Source: Rhodothermales bacterium
Lineage (GTDB): Bacteria > Bacteroidota > Rhodothermia > Rhodothermales > JANQRZ01
Assembly (NCBI GenBank): GCA_028284265.1
Contig: JANQRZ010000011.1
Span: 62,001-126,000, forward strand
DNA: 64,000 nt
Reading direction: 5' to 3'
Of this stretch, positions 12,442 to 53,523 are shown piece after piece (position 1 is the stretch's first letter; each line of letters begins with the position of its first letter). Position numbers and translations under genes: made by a program. A model generated the notes under the pieces. It was not told the DNA's origin, did no database searches, and saw only the letters and a list, made by a program, of their open reading frames with translations.

Positions 12442-13178
12442 GGTGCATTCATCTCTCGCATCGCTTCCAGCGTCCACGCCTCCTCCACGGTGAACGGCCC
12501 GATGGCGGTACGCCGAAGCGCCGCGAGGTGCGCGCCAACGCCGAGATTTCCTCCGAGGTCGTGCGCAAGCGTACGGACGTAGGTGCCCTTCGAGCACTCG
12601 ACGATGAAATCTACGTCATCGCCTCGCCGCTCCGTCAGGTCGAACCGGTAGACGGTGACAGGGCGGGCGATGCGCTCGATGGTTTCGCCGCGCCGGGCCT
12701 TTTTGTAGAGCCGCTCGCCCTCCACCTTCACCGCAGAGTACATCGGCGGGCGCTGCTCGATCTCACCGAGAAACGCCTGCCGCGCTGCGTCGATATCAGC
12801 GTCGGTGACGTGCGAAGCGTCGCGGGTCTCGACGACCTCGCCCTCGGCGTCGTAGGTCTCTGTGATCTGGCCCAGACGGACCGTACCGGTGTAGGTCTTG
12901 GGCAACCCCATGAACTGGTCTTGCAAGCGCGTAGCTTGCCGTCCGATGAGACAGATCAGCAGGCCCGTCGCTGCCGGATCGAGCGTCCCTGCGTGGCCGA
13001 TTTTCTTGGTCCCGAGAATCGGCCGCAGCCGCCGAATCACCCCGAACGACGACAGCCCATGCGGCTTATCGACAAGCAAGATCGCGGACTCGCCGGGGCT
13101 GGGCAGCGCGTCTGTCTTCGTGATGATAGGTGGCGTCTCCACCTCGACCTCAACCGTCACGTTCCAGTCCTTCGGCAT
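12438..13178 (-). CDS. truB: tRNA pseudouridine55 synthase
   Basis: Forms the conserved pseudouridine of the tRNA T-loop. I start it at the ATG at 13178 (MPKDWNVT), giving 246 residues and a 29-base overlap with rbfA; an ATG at 13211 is also possible, while the longer frame is only rbfA read out of frame. The catalytic Asp motif KIGHAGTLDPAATGLL is intact, preceded by ILLVDKPHGLSSF. PPMYSAVKVEGERLYKKAR and CSKGTYVRTLAHDLG follow. Standard position between rbfA and ribF. Confidence 0.94.
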   Translation of the reverse strand: MPKDWNVTVEVEVETPPIITKTDALPSPGESAILLVDKPHGLSSFGVIRRLRPILGTKKIGHAGTLDPAATGLLICLIGRQATRLQDQFMGLPKTYTGTVRLGQITETYDAEGEVVETRDASHVTDADIDAARQAFLGEIEQRPPMYSAVKVEGERLYKKARRGETIERIARPVTVYRFDLTERRGDDVDFIVECSKGTYVRTLAHDLGGNLGVGAHLAALRRTAIGPFTVEEAWTLEAMREMNAP

Positions 13179-13566
13179 CCGGCGTTTCCGCTTCGTCGCT
13201 ATGGGGTTCATCCCCTCGCTCGGCGCGGATGCGGTCGAAGAGTTCTTCCATCCGGGCGGCCTGCTGCTGCGTCTCGTCAAGGAAGAAGCGGAGTTCGGGA
13301 ATCTTGCGGACCTGGTGGCGGATGCGCTGCGCGAGAGCATGGCGAATCTGAGTCGACAGGTCTTCGACGCGGCGAAACGCGATCTGCCGCCGTCCCTCAT
13401 CTTCGCCGAGCACGCTCAGGTAGACGTAAGCGATGCCAAGGTCGTTCGTGACGCGGACGTTCGTAACGGTGACGAGAGCCTGCGAAGCTTCGAAAAACTC
13501 GTTGCCCAACAGGTCAGCGATTTCGCGCTGCACCATGCGGGACAGCCGCTCGGTTCGGATGCTCAT
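13150..13566 (-). CDS. rbfA: 30S ribosome-binding factor A
   Basis: Cold-responsive 30S maturation factor with a type II KH fold. The 138-residue protein begins RTERLSRMVQREIADLL, continues VTVTNVRVTNDLGIAYVYLSVL and ends the conserved part with RKIPELRFFLDET. A charged, poorly conserved tail of about 25 residues carries the overlap with truB. A palindromic heptad repeat fills the spacer from infB. Confidence 0.93.
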   Translation of the reverse strand: MSIRTERLSRMVQREIADLLGNEFFEASQALVTVTNVRVTNDLGIAYVYLSVLGEDEGRRQIAFRRVEDLSTQIRHALAQRIRHQVRKIPELRFFLDETQQQAARMEELFDRIRAERGDEPHSDEAETPDAEGLERDG

Positions 13567-13569
13567 AAG

Positions 13570-13657
13570 CTATTAGCTCTTGGCCATTAGCTGTTAGCTC
13601 CAAGCACAACCATTGAAGCCGAGAGGCCAACAGCCAAGAGCTTAACAGCCAACAGCC
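13570..13657. repeat. Palindromic heptad repeat in the infB-rbfA spacer
   Basis: The spacer consists of two arms, 13571-13601 and 13625-13657. The first reads as degenerate 7-base units CTATTAG-CTCTTGG-CCATTAG-CTGTTAG. The second is its approximate reverse complement (units like GGCTGTT and AAGCTCTTGG on the other strand). A short related piece, GCTGTTAGCTCTTGG, recurs at 51493-51507. The RNA could fold into an imperfect hairpin ending at the infB stop. Confidence 0.75.
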
Positions 13658-16396
<2,739 letters not shown>

Positions 16397-28301: not shown

Positions 28302-28321
28302 GGGGGATGGAAGAAGGGCGA

Positions 28322-28391
28322 GAAGAGAGGGCAAAGATAGAGGAGAGAGCATCTCTCTTTTCTATCTCCACTTTCTCCTCTCTCTTTTCTC
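28322..28391. repeat. Pyrimidine-rich degenerate repeat
   Basis: On the plus strand 28352-28391 reads in roughly 9-base units TCTCTTTTC-TATCTCCAC-TTTCTCCTC-TCTCTTTTC. It is preceded by a complementary purine-rich stretch (AGAGAGGGC, GAGGAGAGAG) at 28322-28350, so the spacer can form a hairpin. It lies between the CDF transporter stop and the flavin reductase start on the minus strand. Confidence 0.6.
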
Positions 28392-50606: not shown

Positions 50607-50614
50607 GTGATCGG

Positions 50615-50672
50615 GTCTTTTGTCATTGGTCCTTCGTCATTCGCAAATGACCAGTGACGAGTGACAAAGGAC
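50615..50672. repeat. Palindromic heptad repeat in the rpsR-rplI spacer
   Basis: The left arm, 50617-50641, reads in 7-base units TTTGTCA-TTGGTCC-TTCGTCA-TT. The right arm, 50646-50670, is its approximate reverse complement (AATGACC-AGTGACG-AGTGACA-AAGG), about 18 of 25 positions. Same structure as the site at 13570-13657 but with a different word. Confidence 0.75.
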
Positions 50673-50950
50673 TATTTGATGTTGTCCGCGACGAAGGGCA
50701 GCAGCGCCATGTGGCGGGCGCGCTTGACAGCAATCGTGAGCTGACGCTGGGACTTCGCCGAGACGCCGGTGACGCGCCGGGGCAGAAGCTTGCCCTGCTC
50801 GTTCAGGTAGCGCTTGAGGGTCTCGGTGTCCTTGTAGTCGATGTACTCGATGCCTTCGGACTCGAAGGGACAGACGGGGCGGCGTTTCGCGCCGGGGACG
50901 GCAGCGCGAGCGATAGGCTCGGTCTGCTTCTTGCGTTCGTTTCGTGCCAT
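50672..50950 (-). CDS. rpsR: 30S ribosomal protein S18
   Basis: 92 residues with a basic N-tail and the S18 core [23 protein letters not shown] followed by [26 protein letters not shown] (quoted in part). The segment [15 protein letters not shown] keeps one cysteine but no zinc-binding set. Partner of S6 in the platform; 45 bases after rpsF. No ssb gene lies between rpsF and rpsR, as in many Bacteroidetes. Confidence 0.96.
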
Positions 50951-51490: not shown

Positions 51491-51512
51491 GGGCTGTTAG
51501 CTCTTGGTGAAT
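51491..51512. repeat. Partial copy of the TTAGCTC heptad word
   Basis: GGGCTGTTAGCTCTTGG at 51491-51507 matches the word used in the infB-rbfA spacer (13571-13601). It lies 13 bases after the stop of the E1 fusion gene read on the minus strand. Confidence 0.5.
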
Positions 51513-51525
51513 GAGCGTCGCTCGC

Positions 51526-53523
51526 TCAGTACGCCAACACACGCTCGATACCCTCTCTCAGCTTGCCGCTTGCCGAATAGATGTCGCGCTCCAGCCCTCT
51601 CGAGAATGGAATCGGCAGGTCTTCGGAGGCGACGCGGACGGGCGGCGCATCGAGGTGCTCGAAGCCCTCTTCGATGACCTGGGCGGCGACCTCGGCCCCG
51701 AACCCGGCGGTGCGCTGCGCCTCGTGGAGCACGACGAGCCGGTTCGTCTTCGCGAGCGAGCGTAGCACCGTCGCCCGGTCCCACGGCACGAGGGTGCGGA
51801 GGTCCACAACCTCGATAGCCACACCCTGCTCGGTCCAATGGTCAGCCTCTTCCAGCGCCCACTGCACACCAACGCCCCACGTCACGAGCGTCAGGTCGCT
51901 GCCTTTGCGGGCGATGTTCGCCTCACCGAGTGCGATGGCATACGGTGCGTCCGGTACCTCGCCTTTGAGCGAGCGGTAGAGGTGCTTGTGCTCGAAAAAC
52001 AACACCGGGTTCGGGTCTTCGATAGCGGCCATCAGCAGTCCTTTTACATCGGCGGGCGTGCCGGGGACGACGACTTTCAGGCCGGGCGCGTGGGCGAACC
52101 ACGCTTCGGGCGATTGTGAGTGAAATGGTCCGGCCCCGATGCCGCCACCAAACGGGGCACGGATCGTCACGTTGAGCGGCTCGCCCCAGCGGTAGTGCGT
52201 CGTGCCGAGGTTGTTGACGATCTGGTTGAACCCGCAGGTGATGAAGTCGGCGTACTGCATCTCGACCACTGGCTTCAAGCCTTCGAGCGCGAGACCCATC
52301 GCACAACCAATCGCCCCGCTCTCAATGATCGGGGTGTTGCGGACCCGCTCGCGCCCGAACTGCTCGACGAAGCCCTGCGTGACCTTGAACACGCCGCCGT
52401 ATTCAGCTACGTCCTGCCCCATAACGAGGACGCGGTCGTCGGCCTCCATCGCCTGCCACAACCCGTCCTGCACGGCGTCGATGAATCGCTTTTCTGAGAC
52501 AGCTCCTTTCGCGGGCGAGGTCGTGACGAGTGACGGTGCGAAGAGCGCGGCGCGCTCGGCAGCGAGGGTGCTCTCGACCTCGGGCTGCCGAATGGCCCAC
52601 TCGGCGGTCTCCTCGATCTCAGCCGCGAGCGCCTCGTCGACCTGGGCCATTGCCTCTTCCGAGAGCCACCCTTCAGCGAGGCATGTCTTTTTGTATTGCA
52701 ATAACGGGTCTCGGTCGCCCCATTCGTCGAACAGCGCCTCGGGCACGTACTTCGTCCCGCTCGCCTCCTCGTGCCCGCGCATCCTGAACGTCTTCATCTC
52801 CAGCAGCGTCGGTCCCTCTCCGGCCCGCGCCCGTTCAGCGGCCCGGCTGACGGAGTCGATCACCGCGAGCACATCGTTGCCATCCACGACCTCGCCCGGC
52901 ATCGCGTAGCCCGCCGCCGCATCGGCGATGTCTTCGACCGCCATCGCCTCACCCGTCGGCGTGGAGAGGCCGTACTGGTTGTTCTCGACCACGAACAGGA
53001 CCGGCAGCTTCCAGACGGCGGCGAGGTTGAGCGCTTCGTGGAAATCCCCCTCTCGTGTCGCCCCCTCGCCGACGAACGCGCACGCCACGAAGTCCTCATC
53101 CTTTAGTTGCGAGGCGAGGCCGAAGCCCGTCGCGACGGGCAGCATCGCTGCGAGGTGCGAGATCATCCCAACGATCCGGTGCTCCATCGTGCCGAAGTGG
53201 AAGGTTCGGTCGCGCCCGTTTGTGAAGCCGCCCTCTTTGCCCATGAGCTGACAGAAGAGCGGGCGGAGCGGGAGACCGCGCGTGGTCCAGACGCCGAGGT
53301 TGCGGTGCATCGGTAGGATCACGTCGCGCTCACGGAGCGCCCACACGCAGCCGACGGCAATCGCCTCCTGCCCGTAGCCGGAGAACCACTTCGAGAGGCG
53401 GTTCTGCCGAATGAGGCGGAGCATCTTTTCCTCAACGGTGCGCGGAAGCTGCAGGGCGCGGTAGAGCGCCGCGTGGTCGAGGGAGGCATCAGAAGGCACA
53501 GGCACCGCCGTAGACTTGGGCAT
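51526..53523 (-). CDS. Fused E1 alpha/beta 2-oxoacid dehydrogenase
   Basis: Thiamine-diphosphate E1 component of a 2-oxoacid dehydrogenase complex (pyruvate or branched-chain 2-oxoacid type), with both subunits in one 665-residue chain. The alpha half (1 to about 330) has the ThDP/Mg motif VGEGATREGDFHEALNLAAV followed by VVENNQYGLSTP. The beta half (about 345-665) has VLVMGQDVAEYGGVFKVTQG and the C-terminal transketolase domain DLTLVTWGVGVQWALE to VDLRTLVPWD. Fused forms are known in Bacteroidetes. No E2 or E3 gene is in the window. The alpha part starts at the ATG at 53523. Confidence 0.92.
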   Translation of the reverse strand: MPKSTAVPVPSDASLDHAALYRALQLPRTVEEKMLRLIRQNRLSKWFSGYGQEAIAVGCVWALRERDVILPMHRNLGVWTTRGLPLRPLFCQLMGKEGGFTNGRDRTFHFGTMEHRIVGMISHLAAMLPVATGFGLASQLKDEDFVACAFVGEGATREGDFHEALNLAAVWKLPVLFVVENNQYGLSTPTGEAMAVEDIADAAAGYAMPGEVVDGNDVLAVIDSVSRAAERARAGEGPTLLEMKTFRMRGHEEASGTKYVPEALFDEWGDRDPLLQYKKTCLAEGWLSEEAMAQVDEALAAEIEETAEWAIRQPEVESTLAAERAALFAPSLVTTSPAKGAVSEKRFIDAVQDGLWQAMEADDRVLVMGQDVAEYGGVFKVTQGFVEQFGRERVRNTPIIESGAIGCAMGLALEGLKPVVEMQYADFITCGFNQIVNNLGTTHYRWGEPLNVTIRAPFGGGIGAGPFHSQSPEAWFAHAPGLKVVVPGTPADVKGLLMAAIEDPNPVLFFEHKHLYRSLKGEVPDAPYAIALGEANIARKGSDLTLVTWGVGVQWALEEADHWTEQGVAIEVVDLRTLVPWDRATVLRSLAKTNRLVVLHEAQRTAGFGAEVAAQVIEEGFEHLDAPPVRVASEDLPIPFSRGLERDIYSASGKLREGIERVLAY

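Follow-up and report, generated by a model that had tools for sequence, protein, structure and literature searches.

The spacer between infB and rbfA is filled by two arms of degenerate heptamers that face each other (TTRGCYN / NRGCYAA), and the explanation that we put first, at about even chances, is a dispersed non-coding palindrome, REP-like in a loose use of the term, whose facing heptamer arms act as an intercistronic hairpin. This explanation is supported by the presence of multiple copies with a near-zero control, the fixed order of the arms (48 vs 0) and the strong fold, by the location of 15/15 copies in same-strand gaps and the hairpins with other words kept in the gaps of relatives, by the likeness of the loops and the abundant word that each genome has of its own, and by the hairpin count of 0/50 in divergent spacers, the G-rich 5' arms and the C-rich, SD-poor starts. 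In the gaps compared, slot and architecture persist and the word turns over. More tentatively, facing-heptamer palindromes may constitute a distinct and widespread intergenic class with lineage words, among which TTRGCYN is multi-phylum, and with an architecture kept for function while both arms are rewritten.

Structure of the infB-rbfA element

The features of the window, i.e. the whole stretch of 64,000 nucleotides that was analysed, are listed in Table 1. The original prediction described a palindrome of facing arms of 7-base units that fills the infB-rbfA spacer, and both the sequence and its period agree with this description. The plus-strand sequence is TAAGCTA TTAGCTC TTGGCCA TTAGCTG TTAGCTC in the left arm; the right arm is AGGCCAA CAGCCAA GAGCTTA, followed by AACAGCCAACAGCC. 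Lag 7 was the best period of both halves of the spacer (0.62 vs at most 0.33 for lags 5, 6, 8, 9 and 10), and by this test a 7-nt tandem unit is present in both arms. A hairpin in the operon mRNA right behind the infB stop had also been claimed, and the predicted fold of the sense RNA bears it out (-45.6 kcal/mol, z -5.8; 0/200 shuffles equal); the DNA fold has a z of -3.2. The predicted hairpin comprises about 25 bp and extends from 7 nt past the infB stop to 1 nt short of the rbfA start, with the sequence immediately ahead of this start paired. A search of the element against Rfam returned sub-threshold chance matches only, none above the gathering score.

Table 1. Features of the heptamer palindrome and its surroundings in the window
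Feature	Coordinates	Strand	Basis or description
infB-rbfA spacer, whole	13567..13657	minus	91 nt, filled by heptamer-armed palindrome
infB (translation initiation factor IF-2), upstream gene	13658..16396	minus	NCBIfam TIGR00487
rbfA (ribosome-binding factor A), downstream gene	13150..13566	minus	NCBIfam TIGR00082
Hairpin 5' arm, mRNA sense, TTRGCYN units	13626..13650	minus	RNA fold pairing
Loop region between arms, partly paired itself	13592..13625	minus	RNA fold
Hairpin 3' arm, mRNA sense, NRGCYAA units	13568..13591	minus	RNA fold
Two-unit half arm of TTRGCYN-type word, upstream of rpsF, no clear partner arm	51491..51507	plus	

The recurrence of part of the word at 51491-51507, which had been noted before, is present, but it amounts to merely a two-unit half arm. 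The earlier reading of the window overlooked another complete heptamer palindrome at 50614-50673, of the word TTNGTCN / NGACNAA, which fills the gap at 50607-50671 in the rpsR-rplI spacer; its flanking genes were confirmed by profile as S18 and L9.

Copies of the element in the genome

The pattern searches covered the whole 3.69-Mb genome, and the spacer statistics were obtained from a 464-kb sample (the window plus twenty 20-kb stretches). The two-arm search pattern (GCYNTTRGC, a gap of 4-34 and GCNAAYRGC) gave 28 forward and 20 reverse matches (48) vs 2 and 1 for the reversed control, and arms in swapped order gave 0. The 48 matches merged into 17 sites, 15 of which were clear elements. No enrichment of 7-base periodicity in the spacers had been named in advance as the result that would speak against the element; about 15 copies stand against the near-zero control, and palindromes of other heptamer words were found in the sampled spacers too. 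Lags 6, 9 and 12 of an unmasked period scan were mostly linked to coding sequence and were left out.

All 15 clear copies sit in gaps between same-strand neighbours, 13 after a protein gene and two after a tRNA gene. Their locations include rpsG-fusA, pheS-pheT, rplB-rpsS, rpoA-rplQ, atpD-atpC, the gap before tpiA, a tRNA-tRNA gap and a tRNA-yicC gap, where gene names beyond the profile-confirmed ones are readings of the translated ends. The copies abut stops and starts, and in the protein-gene cases the upstream stop codon often lies inside the outermost unit. TAG stop codons showed no significant excess at the elements (7/13 vs 127/343, p 0.14).

TT and GC within the units were demanded by the search pattern, and their constancy is partly by construction. 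Among the free positions in the copies of this genome, R was A in 34 and G in 44 cases, and N was spread over all bases. Likeness between adjacent units did not exceed the random level (N 4/26, R 19/52); the arms thus do not consist of fresh tandem copies. The variable positions of the two arms showed no covariation beyond that between arms of different elements. Stem mismatches on the sense strand comprised 16 G-T and 21 A-C pairs; this is no excess of G-U over A-C, no tolerance of wobble at the RNA level is visible in it, and the mismatches therefore do not establish selection on the sense RNA.

The same gaps in related genomes

Comparison of the same spacer in sister strains had been proposed as a check. 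In the sister species G001, whose RbfA is 89% identical, the infB-rbfA gap does hold a heptamer palindrome, but the word differs (GAGYGTC/GACRCTC). The same gap holds TTTTGGG/AACCCCN in G002, a member of the same family, GCGGATT/AATCCGC in G007, GGGACTG/CAGTCCC in G013 and TCAGCYN in G009, and it is short or AT-rich in the remaining relatives. The rplB-rpsS gap of G001 contains GGATRGA, the rpoA-rplQ gap contains TTTCTGG in G001 and TTRGCYN in G002, the atpD-atpC gap contains GAGCGAC in G001 and GAGTGAC in G002, and the tRNA-yicC gap of G001 contains an octamer palindrome (GSTGATTG). At rpsG-fusA the element is kept in G001, and none is found in G002. The words in comparable gaps of the relatives thus include GARYGAC, GGATRGA, GGTTYGG, TTTCTGG and the octamer GSTGATTG.

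In comparable gaps delimited by hand, with some non-syntenic ones excluded, hairpins (z < -2.5) were found in 9/11 cases in G001 and 9/13 in G002, mostly with another word, vs 11/65 and 10/57 (17-18%) of the background same-strand spacers, which cover a wider length range (Fisher p 5e-5 and 5e-4, respectively).

The HAD-thiolase and pheS-pheT gaps of this genome hold the heptamer element. The former holds GGTTCGG in G002 and a GTAG-type REP palindrome in G001 (L398), and another GTAG-type palindrome occupies the pheS-pheT gap of G002 (L385).

Lineage words and distribution over phyla

Each genome has its own abundant word. GARYGAC palindromes gave 40 matches per strand in G001 (more than 20 loci), 11 in G002 and none in this genome, with a control count of 0 in all three, and GGATRGA palindromes were confined to G001 among 22 genomes. 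Within a genome or genus, the loops of same-word elements are more alike than shuffled loops (0/200, three sets), which suggests common descent of same-word elements, although residual arm units may add to the likeness of the loops.

A stricter TTRGCY palindrome pattern, for which few chance matches were estimated in the whole genome collection, matched at least 119 stretches across that collection. Records among the matches listed came from Bacteroidales, Prevotella, Hymenobacter, Saprospiraceae, Acidobacteria, Gemmatimonadales, Planctomycetota, Anaerolineae, Levybacteria, Uhrbacteria, Acetothermia and others, and at the level of phyla the TTRGCYN palindrome occurs, among these same matches, in Bacteroidota, Acidobacteriota, Gemmatimonadota, Planctomycetota, Chloroflexota and candidate phyla. 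The original prediction named no description for this lineage; the word palindrome is not confined to one lineage but occurs in many phyla. Forward counts reached 98 with controls of at most 5 in 18 genomes picked for having a match, and 61/61 sampled genomes from the genus of one Hymenobacter carrier had matches, several of them merely at control level. The order with the T arm first exceeded the reverse order by about 10:1 in 12 of these genomes, but not in every one. Elements in other phyla occupy gaps of all orientations, including convergent and divergent ones; the preference for same-strand gaps is weak there (80/109 vs 68% of background spacers), and within such gaps the elements lie at a median of 13 nt from the upstream stop by simple ORF calls.

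Hairpins in spacers

Strong hairpins (z < -3) were found in 43/378 same-strand, 13/43 convergent and 0/50 divergent spacers (1.26 Mb sampled). A subset of them fills the gap from stop to start and is built of repeated 7- or 8-nt words or of polypurine arms. In same-strand hairpins, the 5' arm contained more G than C in 36 vs 13 cases (p 0.001), and the gap-filling palindromes have a G-rich 5' arm. Start regions in this genome are C-rich and SD-poor, an SD-like 4-mer being present at 25/276 ATG starts; with a C/A-rich 3' arm, a typical start region is thereby placed inside that arm.

Comparison with known repeats

Cyanobacterial STRRs are short tandem direct repeats of heptamers in spacers, with the words CCCCART, TTGGTCA and CAACAGT. 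The last of these is one base from the CAACAGC found here. As here, STRRs are tandem heptamers in spacers, but they are not described as facing arms. The likeness to STRRs drawn by the original prediction thus holds for the 7-nt tandem units and the spacer location and fails for the arrangement, which has one direction in STRRs and TAACTGA repeats and consists here of facing degenerate arms. The core of integron attC sites, GTTRRRY, was unmatched, and this identity was dropped.

TAACTGA heptamer direct repeats have a scattered phylogeny (Beggiatoaceae, some cyanobacteria and Bacteroidetes) and occur in genomes poor in canonical ribosome-binding sites; they comprise 2 to 6 or more units and are intergenic, often directly ahead of a start codon (PMC4679880). 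They have one fixed word in one direction, with a single indirect repeat reported (PMC4679880). The infB-rbfA element resembles them in unit length and position, but they have no facing arm and a different word. The facing arms in all 15 clear copies rule out a one-direction repeat of the STRR or TAACTGA type, and the free R and N positions and unlike adjacent units do not match a type with a near-constant word. In Geobacter metallireducens, runs of four to five heptamers in tandem, with the words GGACCGG and MTYCTGA, form multicopy elements (PMC2700814); they are multicopy like TTRGCYN but have other words, and they are not known to have facing two-arm heptamers.

GTAG/CGTC REPs are dispersed palindromes that lie inside operons and at the 3' ends of genes, in many cases within 15 nt of a stop codon (PMC3733652, PMC12306157), and untagged palindrome families exist (PMC3733652). 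The heptamer element shares the dispersed, 3' location, with about 15 copies of the TTRGCYN word all in gene gaps, but it is untagged and its arms are tandem heptamers. No GTAG/CGTC tag was present at the ends of the infB-rbfA spacer or in the listed copies, which excludes a tagged REP. An origin from a RAYT/REP system was rejected, as the Y1 transposase (PF01797) is absent from this genome (97.86% complete) and from G001; in other genomes, PF01797 was neither flanked by nor near heptamer arms, and no transposase or other spreading factor for the element was found. A literature search by sequence words gave chance matches only, and no description of facing heptamer arms was found in the open-licence literature.

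Function and origin

On the explanation put first, such palindromes would settle at gene 3' boundaries, in this case between the stop and the start of same-strand neighbours, and may have spread by copying and 7-nt slippage. The mRNA copy of the infB-rbfA element would fold into a gap-filling hairpin, which could hide the rbfA initiation region until the ribosome finishing infB opens the stem, and which might also provide an mRNA boundary for decay or processing. The predicted geometry at rbfA fits a start region paired in the stem; the mismatch pattern lends coupling no support. Against this explanation stand the lack of arm covariation and the mismatch counts, in which RNA-level selection is not visible, the convergent and divergent copies in other phyla and the failure to find a spreading factor. 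Coupling to a terminating ribosome cannot apply to the two copies after tRNA genes; together with the missing wobble bias, these copies tell against a purely translational role, and for this reason the repeat reading is ranked first and a dedicated RNA device second.

The latter would be an RNA device selected for translational coupling, in which any hairpin bridging stop and start suffices, the sequence drifts freely and the start region stays paired until the ribosome ends on the upstream gene. We regard it as unlikely. In its favour, slot and fold are kept as the word changes, the predicted stem reaches almost to the start codon, start regions are C-rich and SD-poor, the first arm in some cases includes the stop codon of the upstream gene, and the genes on either side of several gaps encode subunits of a single complex (pheS-pheT, rplB-rpsS, rpoA-rplQ, atpD-atpC). 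Besides the tRNA-gene copies, the unbiased mismatches and the arms without covariation, however, such a device alone would explain neither the 15 loci with one word nor the occurrence of that word across phyla. Slightly less likely still is a by-product of replication, i.e. 7-nt slippage and hairpin-templated copying tolerated in gaps under weak selection. It would account for both arms changing word together, for mismatches without strand preference and for the longer pure arrays (L086, G009), and in many genomes heptamers make up the most common class of longer simple tandem repeat (work cited in PMC4679880); but adjacent units here are no more alike than random, unlike fresh slippage, the arm order is fixed, one word recurs over many phyla, and the hairpin slots are common to species above background. 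A protein that recognizes the 7-nt word in DNA or RNA, for which the palindrome would provide an array of two opposed rows of binding sites, would suit the degenerate units with their constant period and variable N and R positions, the fixed arm order and the same word over phyla, but this is improbable because replacement of the word at the same gaps in the sister species is incompatible with a word-specific reader. An intrinsic transcription terminator behind infB is very improbable, for the strong predicted hairpin after the stop codon is followed on neither strand by the U-run that defines such terminators, and the element lies between infB and rbfA with the rbfA start codon abutting the stem.

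If a gap keeps its hairpin while both arms switch word, searches for sequence repeats and RNA families would miss an intercistronic layer of structure; the genome in question has few Shine-Dalgarno sites. In close relatives, the comparable gaps have other words and similar structure and represent a natural experiment on hairpins between stop and start. It also has to be explained, by mobility or by biochemistry, why a single 7-nt word recurs over many phyla.

Other palindromes and arrays

A gap-filling palindrome with a polypurine 5' arm and a polypyrimidine 3' arm lies at 28302-28391 of the window, flanked by two minus-strand genes, and similar ones occur in stretches L322 and L326. Octamer-armed palindromes of the GSTGATTG type were found in L390, L346:7302-7363, L334:10528-10585 and L332:19516-19591, so the arm unit is not always 7 nt. 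Long palindromes beginning GTCATTCTGAGCGAAG / GTCATTGCGAGG (L321:10594-10745, L321:12069-12216 and L333:5010-5196) presumably resemble repeats known from several phyla. At L086:998-1077, G001 has about 11 GGCTGTT units in one direction, an almost pure array that directly follows a stop codon and lacks a facing arm, and long heptamer arrays of up to about 190 nt are present in G009, from another family of the order (L357, L358, L359, L362). Finally, positions 51526-53499 of the window encode a 657-aa protein, an apparent fusion in which the first half corresponds to pyruvate dehydrogenase E1 alpha and the second to E1 beta.
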